This document shows, one piece after another, positions 6,411 to 22,617 of a DNA stretch of 22,617 bases; position 1 is the first letter of the stretch; each line of letters opens with the position of its first letter. Origin of the DNA: a virus; IMG/VR virus record IMGVR_UViG_3300025282_002210, positions 1-22,617 of that record; one strand, 5' to 3'. The notes beneath the pieces are model-generated. The model was not told where the DNA came from. It made no database searches and worked only from the letters and a program-made list of their open reading frames with translations. The position numbers and the translations under genes were made by a program.

Positions 6411-6650
6411 ATGGACGGAGTCCAATTATTATTTAAACTAAAGAAGTTAGTCGAACTCAGACGCGATGATGTGGTTAATGGCATGATCGGTGGTGTTGAC
6501 AATTTTGAAAAATATCAATATATGTTAGGTCAGATACGAACGTATCATTATATTTTACAGGAAATCTCTAACCTGCTAAAAAACAAGGAGCCAAATGAAG
6601 ACGGAAACGTTGTTAAAATTAAAGCCGAAGATCACCCTACCCAAGACTGA
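6411..6650 (+). CDS. Small helical protein, 79 aa, unknown
   Basis: Seventy-nine residues predicted to be mostly helical, with a core QYMLGQIRTYHYILQEISN that has a heptad-like spacing of hydrophobic residues. It ends in a polar tail. The last 56 bases overlap the start of the GroES-like gene in another frame, so the two are probably coupled. The site before the ATG (AGAAAG) is only a weak ribosome site. Small helical proteins of this type commonly precede the co-chaperonin or scaffold gene in marine podoviruses, as far as I recall; the function is not known to me. Confidence 0.65.
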   Translation: MDGVQLLFKLKKLVELRRDDVVNGMIGGVDNFEKYQYMLGQIRTYHYILQEISNLLKNKEPNEDGNVVKIKAEDHPTQD

Positions 6651-7026
6651 TCTAGTGGGGTTAAAGAAACCCAAACAAATTACCAAAGAATCAACAAAGC
6701 TCCCGCAACCAACAGGTTGGAGAATTCTTATACTTCCTTTTAAAATGGGAGAAAAAACAAGAGGAGGTATTTTAATGGGACAAGAGACATTAGAAAAGCA
6801 ACAAGTGGCGTCTCAATGTGGAAACGTATTAGCGATGGGTCCTGATTGTTATCGGGACAAAGATCGTTATAAGCAAGGGCCTTGGTGTAAAGTGGGTGAC
6901 TGGGTTATGTTTGCTCGTTATGCGGGGTCTAGAATAAAAATAGAAGGTGGTGAAGTACGGTTGTTAAATGATGACGAGATCTTGGCAACCATCAAGAATC
7001 CAGAGGATATCTTGCATGAATATTAA
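6595..7026 (+). CDS. GroES-like co-chaperonin (Cpn10 fold)
   Basis: The 143-residue product has a Cpn10 domain at about residues 40-134. Visible landmarks are GWRILILPF (first strand), the flexible-loop equivalent with TRGGILM (residues 55-61, the hydrophobic triplet that in GroES contacts GroEL), GNVLAMGP, KVGDWVMFARYAGSRIKI and the closing NDDEILATI. Phage co-chaperonins such as T4 gp31 replace GroES on host GroEL to fold the capsid protein, and the location just before scaffold and capsid genes fits that. A 40-residue lysine-rich N-terminal extension is longer than in GroES. The start is supported by AAGGAG six bases upstream (6586-6591), even though this places it inside the previous gene. 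No GroEL-like gene is seen, so host GroEL would be the partner. Confidence 0.9.
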   Translation: MKTETLLKLKPKITLPKTDLVGLKKPKQITKESTKLPQPTGWRILILPFKMGEKTRGGILMGQETLEKQQVASQCGNVLAMGPDCYRDKDRYKQGPWCKVGDWVMFARYAGSRIKIEGGEVRLLNDDEILATIKNPEDILHEY

Positions 7027-16290: not shown

Positions 16291-17286
16291 ATGGCTACTT
16301 ATAAAGGTATACAGGGTTATTCAGTTCAAAGTTTAGCATCTGATCCTCCCGCTGAACAATCAGTGGGACAACTTTGGTATAATTCTGCTAGTAATGTTTG
16401 GAAATTAGCCACTCAAGGTACAGCAGCGTGGGCTTCGGCGCCGGCCAGAGTAACTGGCACAAATTCAGGAGCTGGTTGCGGTACTCAAAGTGCCATGGTT
16501 ACTTTTGGAGGTAATGCTGCCCCGAGTTATAGCACTTCAGGAATTACGCAAACCTATAATGGTACTTCCTGGTCTGTTTCGCCAGTCACTATAACCGCAC
16601 GTTATTTAATGGCTGGATTTGGAACATCGACTGCAGCAATATGTGCAGGAGGTGCGGCTCCAACAACAGGAGCGACTGAAGAATTTGATGGATCTAGCTG
16701 GACGGCAGTTAATGCTTTAAATAATTTATGTTCTCATACAGCGGGATGTGGAACAAGTACGGCTGGAATAAAAACTGGAGGAGATACTCCTCCCAAAAGC
16801 CCAAACCTCAGCGGAAATTCAGAAAAATGGAATGGAACATCTTGGACAGAAGTCACTGGCTTCACTAGTGGCAGAACAAATATGGCAACAGGAGGTACTC
16901 AAGATTCATGTTTAGTTATGGGAGGTACTCAAGTTCCTGCTCATTTGGGTTTTGTTGAGGAATATAATGGAACGTCTTGGTCAGAAAAAGCCGATCTTCT
17001 TACGGACCGTTCTCACGTTGGATGTTCTGCTAACGGGACAGTTACCTCTATGATTCTTATTGCAGGATCACTACAACCTCCTGCAGCTGCCCAAGCTCTA
17101 ACTGAATCATGGAATGGAACTTCGTGGACAGAGGTAGCTGATTTAGCAAGCGCTAATAATTATAATGTAGGTGGAGGAACTTCAACTGCAGCTATTAATG
17201 TGGCGGGAGCTCCGAACCCTGTTAATACTGTAGTAGAAGAATACAATGACCCATTTTATTCAATCAAAACGGTGACAACAAGTTAA
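16291..17286 (+). CDS. Kelch-like beta-propeller tail adhesin, copy 1
   Basis: The 331-residue protein has an N-terminal module of about 40 residues (MATYKGIQGYSVQSLASDP ... GQLWYNSAS) followed by six repeats of 43-50 residues of the form GxGTxxAxxxGG ... EEYNGTSWTE (about residues 55-331). The di-glycine, tyrosine-asparagine and tryptophan positions are those of Kelch-like blades; six blades would make a propeller. The last blade lacks its W-strand, while a W-strand (AAWASAPARV) precedes the first, consistent with ring closure by the N-terminus. It probably sits at a fibre tip and binds a host surface glycan or protein. No ribosome site is obvious; the gene follows the fibre stop by three bases, so coupling is likely. 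Confidence 0.75.
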   Translation: MATYKGIQGYSVQSLASDPPAEQSVGQLWYNSASNVWKLATQGTAAWASAPARVTGTNSGAGCGTQSAMVTFGGNAAPSYSTSGITQTYNGTSWSVSPVTITARYLMAGFGTSTAAICAGGAAPTTGATEEFDGSSWTAVNALNNLCSHTAGCGTSTAGIKTGGDTPPKSPNLSGNSEKWNGTSWTEVTGFTSGRTNMATGGTQDSCLVMGGTQVPAHLGFVEEYNGTSWSEKADLLTDRSHVGCSANGTVTSMILIAGSLQPPAAAQALTESWNGTSWTEVADLASANNYNVGGGTSTAAINVAGAPNPVNTVVEEYNDPFYSIKTVTTS

Positions 17287-17318
17287 AAATGAATTATAAA
17301 AAATAAAAGGAGGAAACT

Positions 17319-17603
17319 ATGGCAAACTTATATTGTACAGCGACTAACACAGGGAAAGGGTTCTTTACGCATCAAGATCGTAATGACTTTTATCTGTCTG
17401 GTCATGCTGGCGATGTCTGGGTTGTAGGGGATAATAGTAAAGGGTCTGCTTGGATTAGCCGAGTCAATGGTACTTCTAAAACAAAAGTAGAAGCACAAGC
17501 TATTGTTGATGCGCAGATTGCAACAGATGAAGCAGTATGGAATGCACTACCGGCAGGGCGGAAAGAATTTAATCCACCACCTAGTCCAGATCCATTACCT
17601 TAG
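17319..17603 (+). CDS. Small protein between adhesin paralogues, 94 aa
   Basis: Ninety-four residues with its own strong AAGGAGG site, placed between the two Kelch-like paralogues. It has a compact beta-rich first half (FYLSGHAGDVWVVGDNSKG), a helical segment (KVEAQAIVDAQIATDEAVWN) and a proline-rich end (PPPSPDPLP). No domain recognised; similar short proteins occur beside tail fibres in marine phages, as far as I recall. Fibre chaperone or small tail component are both possible. Confidence 0.6.
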   Translation: MANLYCTATNTGKGFFTHQDRNDFYLSGHAGDVWVVGDNSKGSAWISRVNGTSKTKVEAQAIVDAQIATDEAVWNALPAGRKEFNPPPSPDPLP

Positions 17604-17612
17604 GAATTAACT

Positions 17613-18638
17613 ATGGCTACTTACACAGGCATTAAAGGTTTTAAAGTTCAGAGCCTAGCTTCTGATCCTACTACTGATATAGAAGGACAAATTTGGTATA
17701 ATACAGCTAGCAGTGCTTTAAAATATACTGGCCCTGGAACAGGCGCTTGGACTACCGGAGGAAATATGGCAACTACTCGTATAACAACCGCAGCAGGTGG
17801 AACTCAATCTGCATCTTTTGCCGGTGGCGGCGGAAACCATACGGGTGGTACTGCCACTGAAGAATATGATGGAAGTACTTGGGGCTCCGGAGGAGCAATG
17901 CCTACAGCACTTTCTGCTGCTGGTGGAGCAGGAACAATAGCAGCAGGTTTAAGTTTTGGAGGGTATGCTCCTACTCCAGTACCTAGTCCAAACACGAATC
18001 TATGTTTTGAATATGATGGATCAACCTGGACTGCAGGTGGATCTCTAAACACGGAACGGGCTGCTGGAGCAGGTTTTGGAACTCAAACGGCGGCGATGTA
18101 TTCTGGAGGTCAAGGAGATGCAGTACCAACACCCGCGCCAACTTCTAATGAAGAATATAATGGAGTAGGTTGGACTATTACAGGTATTATGAATCAAGCC
18201 GCACAACTAGGTGCAGCTTGTGGAACAACCACAGCAGGACTTTATGCTGGATATTCTCCAGCGACTCCGACTCAAACTTGTACCTGGAATGGAACATCCT
18301 GGACTCAAGTTTCCCCGGGAGCTTTTTCAGTTGATATGTATAACGTAAATATGTTTGGAACAACATCTTCTGCACTTAGATGTAGTGGATTGCCTCCAGG
18401 TACTGATACAGCTCCCAACCTGAAATCAGTCGACGAGTGGGACGGTTCAACTTGGACTGCAACGACATCTAAGACTTATGGAGGGGCGGCAGGAAATGGA
18501 ACAGGAACTACAACGTTAGGACTATCTTTTGGAGGATATAATCCTCTTAACAACCCTCCTTCTTATTATACAGATGCAAATAAAACAGAAGAATGGGCTA
18601 AACCAGTCTTTGCAACTAAAACGGTAACGGTGAGCTAA
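17613..18638 (+). CDS. Kelch-like beta-propeller tail adhesin, copy 2
   Basis: This 341-residue protein is a paralogue of the product of the gene at 16291: the N-terminal module is almost the same (MATYTGIKGFKVQSLASDP, GQIWYNTAS) and six blades with GxGTxTAxxxGG ... EEYDGSTWT follow. Outside those motifs the blades differ strongly from copy 1, and the loops carry proline-rich inserts (PTPVPSPNTN, PTPAPTS). Both copies end in a short KTVT(T/V)S tail. Conserved attachment module plus diverged propeller suggests two receptor-binding specificities on one particle or a pool for switching. AGGA before the ATG. It ends on the start of the next ORF (TAATG). Confidence 0.75.
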   Translation: MATYTGIKGFKVQSLASDPTTDIEGQIWYNTASSALKYTGPGTGAWTTGGNMATTRITTAAGGTQSASFAGGGGNHTGGTATEEYDGSTWGSGGAMPTALSAAGGAGTIAAGLSFGGYAPTPVPSPNTNLCFEYDGSTWTAGGSLNTERAAGAGFGTQTAAMYSGGQGDAVPTPAPTSNEEYNGVGWTITGIMNQAAQLGAACGTTTAGLYAGYSPATPTQTCTWNGTSWTQVSPGAFSVDMYNVNMFGTTSSALRCSGLPPGTDTAPNLKSVDEWDGSTWTATTSKTYGGAAGNGTGTTTLGLSFGGYNPLNNPPSYYTDANKTEEWAKPVFATKTVTVS

Positions 18639-18790
18639 TGGCAACTTATATAGCAGTAAAAGGAATTACAATACAAGTAATTGCAGGGGATCCAGCAAAT
18701 CCTGCAGAAGGACAGGTTTGGTTCAATAGTACAAGCGGAACTTTAAAGGGATATAACGGTACATCAAACGTAACCTTTACAGCTTCATAA
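18638..18790 (+). CDS. Orphan adhesin N-terminal module, 50 aa
   Basis: A 50-residue ORF starts on the stop of the second adhesin (TAATG) and encodes MATYIAVKGITIQVIAGDP ... GQVWFNSTSGTLKGYNGTS, ending in NVTFTAS. It aligns along its whole length with the N-terminal modules of the two Kelch-like paralogues, but stops before any propeller blade. It is either a natural stand-alone anchor protein or the remains of a third adhesin whose propeller was lost. A clean stop and overlap-start argue that it is translated. The -35 box of the next promoter lies in its last codons. Confidence 0.65.
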   Translation: MATYIAVKGITIQVIAGDPANPAEGQVWFNSTSGTLKGYNGTSNVTFTAS

Positions 18791-18804
18791 AATTAATATA
18801 TAAT
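18776..18804 (+). promoter_or_regulatory. Near-consensus sigma70 promoter for the oxygenase operon
   Basis: TTTACA (18776-18781, five of six) and TATAAT (18799-18804, six of six) with a 17-base spacer form the best promoter-like sequence in the window. It overlaps the end of the orphan-module gene and lies just before the ATG at 18814. A start seven bases after the -10 box (about 18811) would leave only about three leader bases, so the first gene might be translated from a leaderless message. Confidence 0.55.
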
Positions 18805-18813
18805 AGAGAAAGA

Positions 18814-19482
18814 ATGAATAAAGGAAAACGTAATATTCAACCGCACGCTGATAAGGAAGTCAAACACCTTATGGTTTTATTGGATAAGTCTCAGGCATCC
18901 GAATTTAAAAAGATGGTTCCAGAGCTTCAGGATACTTGGGTCAAGAAACAAATGTTTAGAACAGAAACTGAAATGCGTTTCTCAGTTTTATCGGATAATA
19001 AATATGGAACCAATGCTGCTAAGTATTGGCAATCAGTTCGTGAACAAAATACCCATTTTGAAAACTTGATGGGTCTTTCATTTGAATATCGAAAGAACGA
19101 TGTTGAGATTGAAAAGATTCAAAGGGACATTAAAAAAGAAAAAGACCCTTTAGAAAAAGAACTGGAACAAATTAAATTAGAAGAAAAACTTTATGCCCGA
19201 GCAAATATGGAACTTGTAGCTAAAGCAAGAATGAAAGAGATTTCAACCTGGTCTAAACTCAAAAAAGAATTTCACGATGGCAAGTTTGATGATCGAGATG
19301 TGAACACGCATCAAGCGGAATCGTACATGCATCAACTCGAACAGAAGAAATTAACTTTAACGCAGGGTACTTCACAGCCTGAAGTGTTTAATGTCCTAGG
19401 TCAATTGGAAACTTTAAAAAGAGTTAGAAAATCAGGAGAACTTCTACCTAAAGGCAAGAACAAAAAACAAATAAAGAAATAA
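18814..19482 (+). CDS. Coiled-coil protein, 222 aa, unknown
   Basis: A 222-residue charged, mostly helical protein. A central motif (DTWVKKQMFRTETEMRFSVL; KYWQSVREQNTHFENLMGLSF) recurs in similar genes of marine podoviruses, as I recall, without known function. Residues about 94-150 have K/E/L heptads typical of a coiled coil, and the end is lysine-rich (KGKNKKQIKK). It is the first gene after the strong promoter and is separated by one base from the first oxygenase, so it is expressed with the oxygenases. It could be a regulator, adaptor or DNA-binding partner of the operon, but the sequence shows no DNA-binding motif. The start lacks a strong ribosome site (GAGAAAG at best). Confidence 0.65.
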   Translation: MNKGKRNIQPHADKEVKHLMVLLDKSQASEFKKMVPELQDTWVKKQMFRTETEMRFSVLSDNKYGTNAAKYWQSVREQNTHFENLMGLSFEYRKNDVEIEKIQRDIKKEKDPLEKELEQIKLEEKLYARANMELVAKARMKEISTWSKLKKEFHDGKFDDRDVNTHQAESYMHQLEQKKLTLTQGTSQPEVFNVLGQLETLKRVRKSGELLPKGKNKKQIKK

Positions 19483-19483
19483 A

Positions 19484-20146
19484 ATGCAATTCGAGATGCA
19501 ATTTGAGTCTGTATTTTTAGGACAATCGGTTATAAAATATCAGGTTCCTCTTGAAATTTTTGTTGGACTCAACGAAATTTACGAACATAATAAAAAACAT
19601 CTACCCAACGCCAATAAACAACTCGCTGGAAAGATTCCCGATGAAGCTTCTCTTTTTTATTCTGGGCCTCCTAACAATAAAATGCGGTCGCATAGTTATA
19701 TATCAGAAGATATTTTGAAATGGTTCTATTCTATTTTTGATCATTATTTAGAATGGAATAAGATTCAAGAATATAAAATGGACATTAACTCCATCTGGGT
19801 CAATGAAATGAAAGCAGGAGACTATAATCCAGTTCACATTCATCAAGGAAAACTCTTCACTGGACTTTCTTCCGTAATGATTCTTAAACTTCCCAAGGAT
19901 ATGGGACCTGAACTCGCTCGTCCTGATCAACCGATGAACGGGCAACTGCAAATATTAGGAAATGTTAGTGGTCAGTTTGTGACTTCTGATTATTCACCTA
20001 AAATGAAGATTGGAGATTTTTATATCTTTCCCTATGATATGAGACATGTCGTTTATCCCATGACGAATAAAAAAGCAAAAAGAAGAACACTGGTTTGTAA
20101 TGTTGATGTCGCATATCACCCTGTTAAATCAAGGACGGCTCAATGA
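19484..20146 (+). CDS. 2OG-Fe(II) oxygenase, HxH type (oxygenase 1)
   Basis: A 220-residue protein with the features of a double-stranded beta-helix 2-oxoglutarate/Fe(II) dioxygenase of the 2OG-FeII_Oxy_5 type: MKAGDYNPVHIHQGKLF with H118 and H120 as the proximal pair, a GDFYIFPYDMRHVVYP strand with distal H188, and R200/R201 before TLVCNVD as candidates to bind the co-substrate carboxylate. The proximal motif reads HxH instead of the common HxD. The start is ambiguous: a 12-base duplication (19484-19507) gives two in-frame ATGs, MQFEMQFE. The substrate is unknown; such enzymes hydroxylate proteins, nucleic acids or small molecules. It is coupled to the following oxygenase by ATGA overlap. 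Confidence 0.72.
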   Translation: MQFEMQFESVFLGQSVIKYQVPLEIFVGLNEIYEHNKKHLPNANKQLAGKIPDEASLFYSGPPNNKMRSHSYISEDILKWFYSIFDHYLEWNKIQEYKMDINSIWVNEMKAGDYNPVHIHQGKLFTGLSSVMILKLPKDMGPELARPDQPMNGQLQILGNVSGQFVTSDYSPKMKIGDFYIFPYDMRHVVYPMTNKKAKRRTLVCNVDVAYHPVKSRTAQ

Positions 20147-20724
20147 TAACAGAACCTAAATGGAAATCTTTACTGGCCAATACTATTGGTCCTTTGTTCA
20201 CTCCTCAACAGTGTCAGGACATTATTGATATGGGTCATCAGCAAAAAGCAGAAAACGCTAAAGTAGGAACTTCTAAAAAAGAAGGTGCTTATGATACCAA
20301 AAAACGAATCACGACCATCAGTTGGATTCCTTTTACAGCACTACCCGATATGTATAAAATGATTGAACGCAGTATGCTTCAAGCCAACGGAAATCATTTT
20401 GGTTATGAGGGCATGCAACTTACCGAGCCAGCTCAATTTACCGAATATCCTAAAGGAGGGTTTTATGATTGGCATATGGATGCTGATGTCAGCGGTCAGT
20501 ATGAACCTCCCGTTAGAAAAATATCAATGACAATTTTACTTTCTCCTGCGAATGAATTTGAAGGAGGGGATCTAGAATTTATGACTCACGGTAATAAACC
20601 TCCTCAGCTCTTACAGGGACAAGCCATTTTCTTTTGTAGTATGATTCGTCACCGGGTGGCTAAAGTTAAGAAAGGTGTCCGACGCTCTTTAGTAATGTGG
20701 TTCGGAGGCCCTCCGTTTAAATGA
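20143..20724 (+). CDS. 2OG-Fe(II) oxygenase, PKHD/prolyl-hydroxylase-like (oxygenase 2)
   Basis: The 193-residue product has a clear prolyl-4-hydroxylase-like core. FYDWHMDAD gives the HxD pair H111 and D113; RKISMTILLSPANEFEGGDLEF (about residues 125-146) is the typical strand-turn after it; GQAIFFCSMIRHRVAKVKKGVRRSL gives distal H170 and the 2OG-binding R180. This is the layout of PKHD-type hydroxylases (YbiX/PiuC-like), whose Fe(II) and 2-oxoglutarate use is established for the family. The ATG overlaps the preceding stop (ATGA) and its own stop overlaps the next ATG. The target is unknown; protein hydroxylation or modification of a nucleobase or sugar are both possible. Confidence 0.86.
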   Translation: MITEPKWKSLLANTIGPLFTPQQCQDIIDMGHQQKAENAKVGTSKKEGAYDTKKRITTISWIPFTALPDMYKMIERSMLQANGNHFGYEGMQLTEPAQFTEYPKGGFYDWHMDADVSGQYEPPVRKISMTILLSPANEFEGGDLEFMTHGNKPPQLLQGQAIFFCSMIRHRVAKVKKGVRRSLVMWFGGPPFK

Positions 20725-21323
20725 ACCGAGAAATTTTATTTCCGACTCCTGTCTATATGAAGATGGTGAAGGATCCTCAAAAATTAAATAAATATTTATT
20801 CCCCCTGATTAAAGCCTGGAGTAAAAAAGATAAGGGTGAAACCAAAACAAATGCGGGAGGAGGTTGGCACAGTCCCACCGATATGAATTTTAAAGACGAG
20901 TATAAACCCTTGACTGATGAACTCTTTAGTATGCAAGATGAAATTTTTAAAGATTATGGTATGGAACCTAAACCAGGACTCGGTAATATGTGGGCGAACA
21001 TTAATTATCCAGGTGCTTATAACAAACAACACATTCATCCTAATTCTCAATGGTCGGGTGTTTATTATGTAAAAGTCCCTAAAAATTCAGGAAATTTATT
21101 TGTAGAAGATCCAAGACCTGGACCTAATATTATACTTCCTCGAAGAGTTAAAGGAATACCCAGGGCCTTATGGCGCGTGGTGATCTATCCAGCAATCGCA
21201 GGACAAATGATTATGTTTCCCGCATGGCTCCCTCATGGTGTAGAAATAAATGAATCCAAAGAAAAAGGAGAAAAAAGCTGGCGCGTGTCGGTTTCTTTTA
21301 ATTTTATTCAGGTGGATAAATGA
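20721..21323 (+). CDS. 2OG-Fe(II) oxygenase, HxH type, TIGR02466-like (oxygenase 3)
   Basis: Two hundred residues. The start EILFPTPVY, the GGGWHSPTDM segment (about 46-55), then NKQHIHPNSQWSGVYYVKVP with H104 and H106, and FPAWLPHGVEIN with H172 followed by WRVSVSFNF with R188, reproduce the arrangement of the putative 2OG-FeII_Oxy_5 / TIGR02466 family. Like oxygenase 1 it has an HxH proximal pair. Sequence beyond the motifs differs strongly from oxygenase 1, so they are not recent duplicates. ATGA overlaps couple it on both sides. The family is common in marine phages and bacteria, but substrates are not established to my knowledge. Confidence 0.82.
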   Translation: MNREILFPTPVYMKMVKDPQKLNKYLFPLIKAWSKKDKGETKTNAGGGWHSPTDMNFKDEYKPLTDELFSMQDEIFKDYGMEPKPGLGNMWANINYPGAYNKQHIHPNSQWSGVYYVKVPKNSGNLFVEDPRPGPNIILPRRVKGIPRALWRVVIYPAIAGQMIMFPAWLPHGVEINESKEKGEKSWRVSVSFNFIQVDK

Positions 21324-21745
21324 TCCAAACTATTTATGCAAAATTACCCCGAGAAAAGATTACTTATTTAGAACGTGCTGAATTTATGAATGGCCAAGAG
21401 CAATCTTTTCGGGATGCTTTAACAGCCTCGATGTCCAAACATGGATTTAGAGATCCTGTTTATTGTTGGTATCATAGTAAGAATTGGAAAGATAAAATAA
21501 AAGTTATTGTGGGCAACAATCGTATGGTAGTAGCCAAAGAATTAAATATCCCAATTGTTCCAGCTGTTATTACAAATTTTAAAGCGGATCAGTTTCCTCT
21601 AGAAGGAAAGATTCTAACTACAGATGAAGAGGTAAAGGCCTTATTTTATTTACCTAAAAAACTTCATGTCAGACGAGATGAGAATGGGGATATTGATCAA
21701 GTCACACCGGCTTATTTTCCAACGGTAAAACAACACTATGTTTAA
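21320..21745 (+). CDS. ParB/Srx-like domain protein
   Basis: The 141-residue protein carries a ParB/sulfiredoxin-like fold motif: HGFRDPVYCW (about 41-50) followed by KVIVGNNRMVVAKELNIPIVPAVI (61-84), matching the GxxRxxAAxxL ... PVxV signature, with G65, N67 and R68 in the nucleotide-binding region. It lacks the helix-turn-helix and C-terminal dimer domain of chromosome-partition ParB, so it is unlikely to be a partition protein. Stand-alone domains of this fold include sulfiredoxin, ParB-like nucleases and CTPase/kinase-like enzymes. It lies between oxygenases 3 and 4, coupled by ATGA upstream and an 8-base overlap downstream, implying a joint process with them. Confidence 0.75.
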   Translation: MIQTIYAKLPREKITYLERAEFMNGQEQSFRDALTASMSKHGFRDPVYCWYHSKNWKDKIKVIVGNNRMVVAKELNIPIVPAVITNFKADQFPLEGKILTTDEEVKALFYLPKKLHVRRDENGDIDQVTPAYFPTVKQHYV

Positions 21746-22379
21746 AACAAAAAAATATCAAGTCATACGTGGAGCGCTTTCCAAAGAGCTAGCAAATTTT
21801 ATCTTTAATTATATGATGCTGCAGCGAGATGCTGTGGATTGGATGGTGAAAAATAATAAAGTTAATGCTTACAATCCCTTTGCTGGGACTCGTGCAGATA
21901 GACAAGTACCCGGGGTCTATTCTAAATATGGCGATTGGATTATGGAAACTTTACTCATGTACATGATTCCTATTATGAAAACTAAAACAGGAATGGATTT
22001 GGTTCCAACGTATTCGTACACCCGACTCTATGAAAAAGGAAATATTCTCAGACGGCACAAGGATCGACCGAGCTGTGAAATTTCTACAACCCTCCATCTA
22101 GGAGGGGATGAATGGCCTATCTTTCTAGACCCAACAGGGGGTAACTTTGTTATTGATGAAGATAAACAAACCATTAAACCTGGAGCTCCGAAAGGAATCC
22201 GCGTGGATTTAAAAGTAGGAGATATGCTGATTTATTCAGGTTGTGAACTCGAGCACTGGCGTGAACCTTTTGAAGGAACCGTGTGTTCTCAAGTCTTTCT
22301 ACATTATAACCATGCCAACGGTCCATTTGCCAAGACGAATCTCTTTGATAAACGCCCCATGCTAGGTGTAAGGAGTTGA
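21738..22379 (+). CDS. 2OG-Fe(II) oxygenase, HxD type (oxygenase 4)
   Basis: A 213-residue protein with the motif YSYTRLYEKGNILRRHKDRPS, giving HxD (H107, D109), STTLHLGGDEWPIF (116-129), VGDMLIYSGCELEHWREPF with distal H173 and candidate 2OG-binding R175, and SQVFLHYN. This combination is common in marine phages and cyanophages and belongs to the 2OG-Fe(II) dioxygenase superfamily. The C-terminal tail after residue 192 is outside the core. It begins within the ParB-like gene and ends the operon; a promoter-like gap follows. It shows no close resemblance to the other three oxygenases outside the catalytic motifs. Substrate unknown. Confidence 0.85.
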   Translation: MFKTKKYQVIRGALSKELANFIFNYMMLQRDAVDWMVKNNKVNAYNPFAGTRADRQVPGVYSKYGDWIMETLLMYMIPIMKTKTGMDLVPTYSYTRLYEKGNILRRHKDRPSCEISTTLHLGGDEWPIFLDPTGGNFVIDEDKQTIKPGAPKGIRVDLKVGDMLIYSGCELEHWREPFEGTVCSQVFLHYNHANGPFAKTNLFDKRPMLGVRS

Positions 22380-22424: not shown

Positions 22425-22617
22425 ATGTTACATAAAATCAGACTTAAACCTGGACTGGATAAACAATCTTCCGATACAGGAGCTGAAGGGAAATGGGTTA
22501 ATGCAGATTATGCTCGTTTTCGTTATGGCTTTCCTGAAAAAATAGGAGGATGGTCTCAACTCGTTGCAGATAATTTAATCGGAGCTGGACGTGATCAACA
22601 TACCTGGGTCGATTTAG
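22425..22617 (+). CDS. N-terminus of tail/virion protein (3' truncated)
   Basis: The last gene runs off the end of the window; 64 residues are visible, from MLHKIRLKPGLDKQSSDTGAEG to QHTWVDL. The pattern of LKPGL, then WVNADYARFRYGFPEKIGGW, then GAGRDQHTW is typical of the start of a large tail protein in marine podoviruses, in my recollection similar in style to tail nozzle / DNA-stabilisation proteins of the P22 gp10 kind. If so, it would attach below the adaptor ring coded at 11667-14016. Only the family style, not a specific fold, can be supported from this fragment. Its place shows that the structural module continues after the oxygenase operon. Confidence 0.6.
   Translation, partial: MLHKIRLKPGLDKQSSDTGAEGKWVNADYARFRYGFPEKIGGWSQLVADNLIGAGRDQHTWVDL

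Follow-up and report, generated by a model that had tools for sequence, protein, structure and literature searches.

Organization of the locus

Six open reading frames lie head to tail on the forward strand at positions 18814-22379 of the window, i.e. of the whole stretch of 22,617 nucleotides that was analysed (IMG/VR virus record IMGVR_UViG_3300025282_002210). They code for a coiled-coil protein (A), three oxygenases (B, C and D), a ParB-like protein (E) and a protein whose family is labelled 'ferrochelatase' (F). One base separates A from B, and the subsequent genes overlap by four bases (B/C, C/D and D/E) or by eight (E/F). The run is preceded by a sigma-70-like promoter (TTTACA-17-TATAAT, 18776-18804, forward strand) which matches the consensus at 11 of 12 positions and is the best of the window. 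The genes, their spacing and the promoter are all as an earlier analysis of this DNA, hereafter the sequence-only reading, had described them. Of 55 loci related by descent, 17 have a site matching 10 or 11 of the 12 positions within 100 bases ahead of A, against 77 of 3000 random stretches of 100 bases (2.6%), a comparison that involves related sequences and is hence no independent test.

The upstream region (16291-18638, forward strand) codes for the k proteins, which are repeat-containing and fibre-like. They are probably fibres and candidate substrates of the enzymes encoded downstream. A k-family ORF also precedes A in the relatives, immediately so in all 56 loci with room for it. The family averages 3.8% of proline and is hence not proline-rich, which led us to reject a proline-rich fibre substrate. 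Between the k proteins and A, just ahead of the promoter, a short ORF (18638-18790) is similar to the k proteins over their N-terminal part and is perhaps the remnant of a fibre gene. On the other side lies the start of gene T (22425-22616, forward strand), a putative tail gene that is cut by the end of the window and matches at the DNA level the gp75 region of Pelagibacter phage HTVC027P. The capsid and portal proteins of the window are 77% and 64% identical to those of the same phage, placing the virus near the HTVC023P-type pelagiphages. By this kinship, its host would be that of these SAR11-infecting relatives. The structural region of the window also carries genes for a NifU-like iron-sulfur scaffold domain (729-1067) and for a GroES co-chaperonin (6595-7026).

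The Pfam oxygenases B, C and D

2-oxoglutarate (2OG) oxygenases are abundant in marine phages. Gene B (19484-20146, forward strand) belongs to the 2OG-FeII_Oxy_5 family (PF13759, E 8e-10), gene C (20143-20724, same strand) is a PKHD-type member of 2OG-FeII_Oxy_3 (PF13640, E 4e-13), and gene D (20721-21323, same strand) matches 2OG-FeII_Oxy_5 and TIGR02466 (PF13759, E 4e-23). These Pfam families imply a double-stranded beta-helix fold for the three proteins, to which solved relatives add for C (PiuC structures, E 2.5e-6) and for D (3bvc and 2rg4, E about 1e-12). The likeness of C to the PKHD hydroxylase PiuC covers only part of the sequence, and substrate specificity cannot be transferred from it. 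Catalytic residues are near-invariant in the family alignments of B, C, D and F. B carries H118xH120...H188 and D carries H104xH106PN...H172, i.e. the HxH...H arrangement also found in 3bvc and 2rg4, which differs from the HxD/E...H iron triad of the superfamily; the latter, as HxD...H, is invariant in C (H111xD113...H170) and in F. After the distal histidine, where the superfamily has an arginine or lysine that binds 2OG, an arginine is invariant in B (R200), C (R180) and D (R188).

Among the four oxygenases, pairwise similarity was found between B and D alone (E about 4e-4 over 46 residues). Mutual similarity is thus nearly absent and we rejected recent gene duplication as the source of the set, which bears out the earlier view of divergent enzymes. 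None of the four matches a TET/JBP or DNA-modification family in Pfam, PHROG or NCBIfam.

Gene F and the 'ferrochelatase' label

Gene F (21738-22379, forward strand) falls in a PHROGs family labelled 'ferrochelatase' (phrog_2954, 1.7e-49). It has no match in Pfam, including to the ferrochelatase family, and its profile has no meaningful match among PDB sequences; the search by fold alone succeeded. The AlphaFold2 model of F (pLDDT 92) has as top Foldseek match the prolyl-4-hydroxylase of P. putida (4iw3, 1.5e-9), with 651 matches under 1e-3. Of the best 50 of these, 49 are 2OG-oxygenase entries, one is a subunit of an RNA-editing complex and none is a ferrochelatase. The structural neighbours also include antibiotic-tailoring oxygenases. 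The family alignment shows an invariant H107-x-D109...H173, and no arginine or lysine at the usual spacing after the distal histidine. Together, predicted fold and motif indicate that F is a divergent 2OG oxygenase, and they led us to reject a haem or iron reading of F. The fold resembles that of 4iw3, but identity is about 14% and the substrate specificity of the latter is not transferable.

The same label (phrog_2954 or phrog_3531) is borne by F, by cyanophage E3SI68, by syn9 gp54 and by AGE60402. In a Foldseek search of viral structures E3SI68 shares the fold of F, so that the label seems a misannotation: judging from the modelled folds, what is called 'ferrochelatase' in pelagiphages and cyanophages is very probably one more 2OG oxygenase. 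This matters, since the label underlies published arguments on haem, iron and seasonality in two papers. We observed a similar case among cyanophage genes annotated as 'DNA endonuclease V' or denV, which match 2OG-FeII_Oxy_3 (L226 7879-9586, L235 6395-6895, L231 79-678). Most of the matches under this name are weak or below cut-off, one is above it, and other genes have none; going by these matches, the label may in part be a misannotation too. Genes annotated as 'minor coat protein' contain the DUF6445 family, which overlaps weak Oxy_3 matches.

Genes A and E

Gene A (18814-19482, forward strand), the first of the run, has an all-helical AlphaFold2 model (pLDDT 85) and no confident match to a known family. 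Phrog_1409 weakly matches 33 of 38 members of the A family, a similarity that is coiled-coil in nature, and phrog_1409 genes lie in the fibre region of cyanophages, S-ShM2 among them. Foldseek found nothing under 0.001 for A among viral structures. Its profile matched none of seven phage records, in a search run without a positive control, and tblastn of A and E against cultured phages gave no match.

Gene E (21320-21745, forward strand) has a single ParB/Srx-like N-terminal domain with a GNNR motif. The match to ParB_N is weak from the single sequence (E 0.019), and the profile search retrieves a ParB structure (7bnk, 2.4e-10), sulfiredoxin (2e-3) and SbnI (0.03). G65 and R68 of the ParB/Srx GxxR motif are invariant in the family. 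At 107-141 residues its members match this N-terminal domain alone, and the central HTH and C-terminal dimerisation domains are absent.

A co-inherited cassette in ocean phages

We collected IMG/VR contigs in separate searches anchored on E, on F, on B and on A, with the best 80 matches kept for each. Naturally, the relatives so counted are mostly close ones and the contigs share ancestry. Among 45 non-redundant loci spanning from k to T, 41 have all four oxygenases and 35 have them in the exact order BCDF. In the 51 non-redundant loci collected with A alone and having at least 3.3 kb downstream of it, C, D and F are always present, B is found in 49, E in 38, and T lies downstream of the cassette in 45. 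Overlaps of four bases recur across loci (68 of about 85 for B/C, 79 of about 96 for C/D, 62 of about 71 for D/F). The recurrence in dozens of non-redundant contigs indicates that the arrangement is not due to chance. Hence, the outcome that the sequence-only reading had named as refuting it, scattered or randomly present genes or oxygenase clusters without the ParB-like gene, was not observed. As a partner, this gene is frequent but optional, and its position shifts: in the A-anchored set it lies before B in 21 loci (A-E-B) and between D and F in 18 (D-E-F).

The genes of the cassette are under purifying selection (median dN/dS between 0.085 and 0.17). Protein distances within A-B-C-D-F correlate strongly between genes (r 0.73-0.92; 0.78-0.92 for A with the oxygenases), whereas their correlations with the flanking k, T, t9 and t11 are weak (r 0.19-0.49, except for 0.66 between A and t9, in 14 loci). 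We conclude that A-B-C-D-F is one co-inherited cassette. T tracks its own neighbours (r 0.91 with t9, 0.71 with t11) and not the cassette (r 0.18-0.31, or 0.28-0.43 with stricter columns), so that cassette and tail genes form separate blocks. The correlation with the adjacent k proteins is weak as well (r 0.19-0.33), which speaks against co-evolution of fibre and cassette; k correlates with little else. In L061, L076 and L092, partial cassettes adjoin T4-like neck and sheath genes, so that the block has moved between phage backbones.

Some cassettes carry further genes. A sulfotransferase is present in 19 of the 51 A-anchored cassettes, 18 of which also have E. It belongs to one of two families, S1 (PF00685) and S2 (PF03567, just above cut-off). 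Other inserts are an APS-kinase-like protein (K), an HxGH nucleotidyltransferase (N) and additional oxygenases, including a DUF6445 protein. In five loci (L068, L081, L084, L089, L099) a sulfotransferase, the APS-kinase-like protein and the small HxGH nucleotidyltransferase form a trio between A and B, which could supply activated sulfate or another activated group. Supply of PAPS by the K/N pair is possible, but N is more like NMN adenylyltransferases.

Oxygenase arrays in other phages

The sequence-only reading held that oxygenases of this class usually occur singly or in pairs in phages, and this proved wrong. In the cultured Pelagibacter phage HTVC008M, five consecutive overlapping genes (AGE60406-AGE60402) code for four Pfam 2OG oxygenases and a homologue of F. 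Yet, this phage is a myovirus, its array lies beside neck genes and lacks a ParB-like gene, and a profile search without a positive control found no A. The HTVC023P-type pelagiphages, the lineage of the window phage, also have 2OG genes colocated with the F family, but in HTVC023P three genes are consecutive and one is distant. The cyanophage syn9 has a run of overlapping 2OG-type genes (gp41-gp54), at least eight of them oxygenase-like when weak matches are counted; it differs by its other member families, which include two tryptophan halogenases and a JmjC protein, and by having no annotated ParB-like gene. The overlapping oxygenase-like genes stand close behind the two halogenases (L226 1-10125). 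In S-ShM2 (SShM2_038-042), tail-fibre genes are followed by a phrog_1409 (A-like) gene and then by three or four oxygenases, but their families differ and no ParB-like gene is annotated. In Mosig, the array lies behind a tail-fibre region; its several 2OG genes are accompanied by a homologue of F, a phycobilin-reductase-like gene and one for a haem oxygenase.

Clustering is also in print. The pairing of 2OG and 'ferrochelatase' genes in HTVC023P-type phages has been noted and read as ferrochelatase chemistry (PMC9599517), in a paper whose main text contains neither "ParB" nor "sulfotransferase". The pairing is enriched in seasonal viruses (PMC11561400). In the open-access literature we met with no description of a cassette that combines A, the ParB-like gene and sulfotransferases. 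Oxygenase arrays as such were already known; new, as far as this literature goes, is the exact cassette, A-B-C-D-F with optional E, and the sequence-only reading likewise knew of no described system with this composition.

Discussion

That four non-redundant oxygenases keep a fixed order, are coupled and are inherited together argues that they serve one process. As many ocean phages pass on the block in one piece, it probably encodes one protein- or metabolite-modifying pathway. We propose that the six genes make up a translationally coupled enzyme cassette, placed in a structural and probably late region and exchanged as a block between marine phages. The oxygenases would be distinct hydroxylases, or other oxidative enzymes, that share a target and modify it in successive steps or at more than one site. 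The likeliest target would be a tail-fibre or tail protein of the phage, and we put the probability of stepwise modification of a shared target, most likely this one, at about 0.45. A virion protein leads because fibre-like genes precede the oxygenases in several types of phage, because the context is that of the structural module, and because F and C have protein-hydroxylase-type enzymes as their closest kin in structure or sequence. Yet, the distances of the cassette do not track those of k, whereas tracking might be expected for a specific fibre substrate, related clusters elsewhere also adjoin neck genes or auxiliary metabolic genes, and the likeness of A to phrog_1409 is weak. The weak correlation with k and the lack of proline enrichment keep our confidence at this level. 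The sulfotransferase of some relatives may act on the hydroxyls so made, or on another site. A might display the target to the enzymes or anchor the latter, and E might bind a nucleotide and act as a regulator or kinase-like accessory. An elaborate version, in which fibres are hydroxylated sequentially, sulfated in some phages, with E as regulator or kinase, and the cassette is exchanged to alter host recognition, is unlikely as a whole.

The main rival to modification of a virion protein is an auxiliary pathway tailoring a surface glycan or lipid of the host, e.g. to change the envelope during infection, or a small metabolite. Tailoring sets resemble what we see, i.e. oxygenases with sulfotransferases, and in syn9 with tryptophan halogenases. 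The antibiotic-tailoring neighbours of F fit this reading, as does movement between backbones, typical of auxiliary genes. But the conserved cassette has no biosynthetic core enzyme (glycosyltransferase or synthetase) and its place behind fibre-like genes is fixed, so we regard such tailoring as possible but somewhat doubtful. The varied content of the otherwise similar cyanophage clusters and the variable presence of E, S1, S2 and additional oxygenases might rather suggest independent genes gathered at a recombination hotspot, without a common pathway. The fixed order of four families in nearly all loci and the tight correlation of their distances make this quite improbable.

Phage DNA oxygenases exist, and with a ParB-like domain nearby one might speculate that the enzymes modify phage DNA to which E guides them or binds. 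This we consider the most improbable reading of all, as the oxygenases match no DNA-modification family in Pfam, PHROG or NCBIfam, E has neither an HTH nor a dimerisation domain, and the operon lies in a structural, fibre-linked region with recurrent sulfotransferase partners. Of the stepwise pathway that the sequence-only reading had inferred, the non-redundant families and their fixed order are thus in favour, whereas DNA as the target is without support beyond the ParB-like fold. Published work offers two other readings: modulation of 2OG was proposed for cyanophages (PMC3037559), and a 'ferrochelatase' partner was proposed for the oxygenases (PMC9599517). Four non-redundant conserved active sites would be superfluous just for consuming 2OG, and the modelled 'ferrochelatase' has an oxygenase fold; a cluster that drains or tunes 2OG, or serves iron or haem metabolism, is therefore very unlikely. 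Modification of a virion protein remains our preferred reading. With A-B-C-D-F as its co-inherited core, and E and the sulfotransferases as optional members, the cassette of ocean phages is a defined unit, and tests of its function can treat it as a single pathway.
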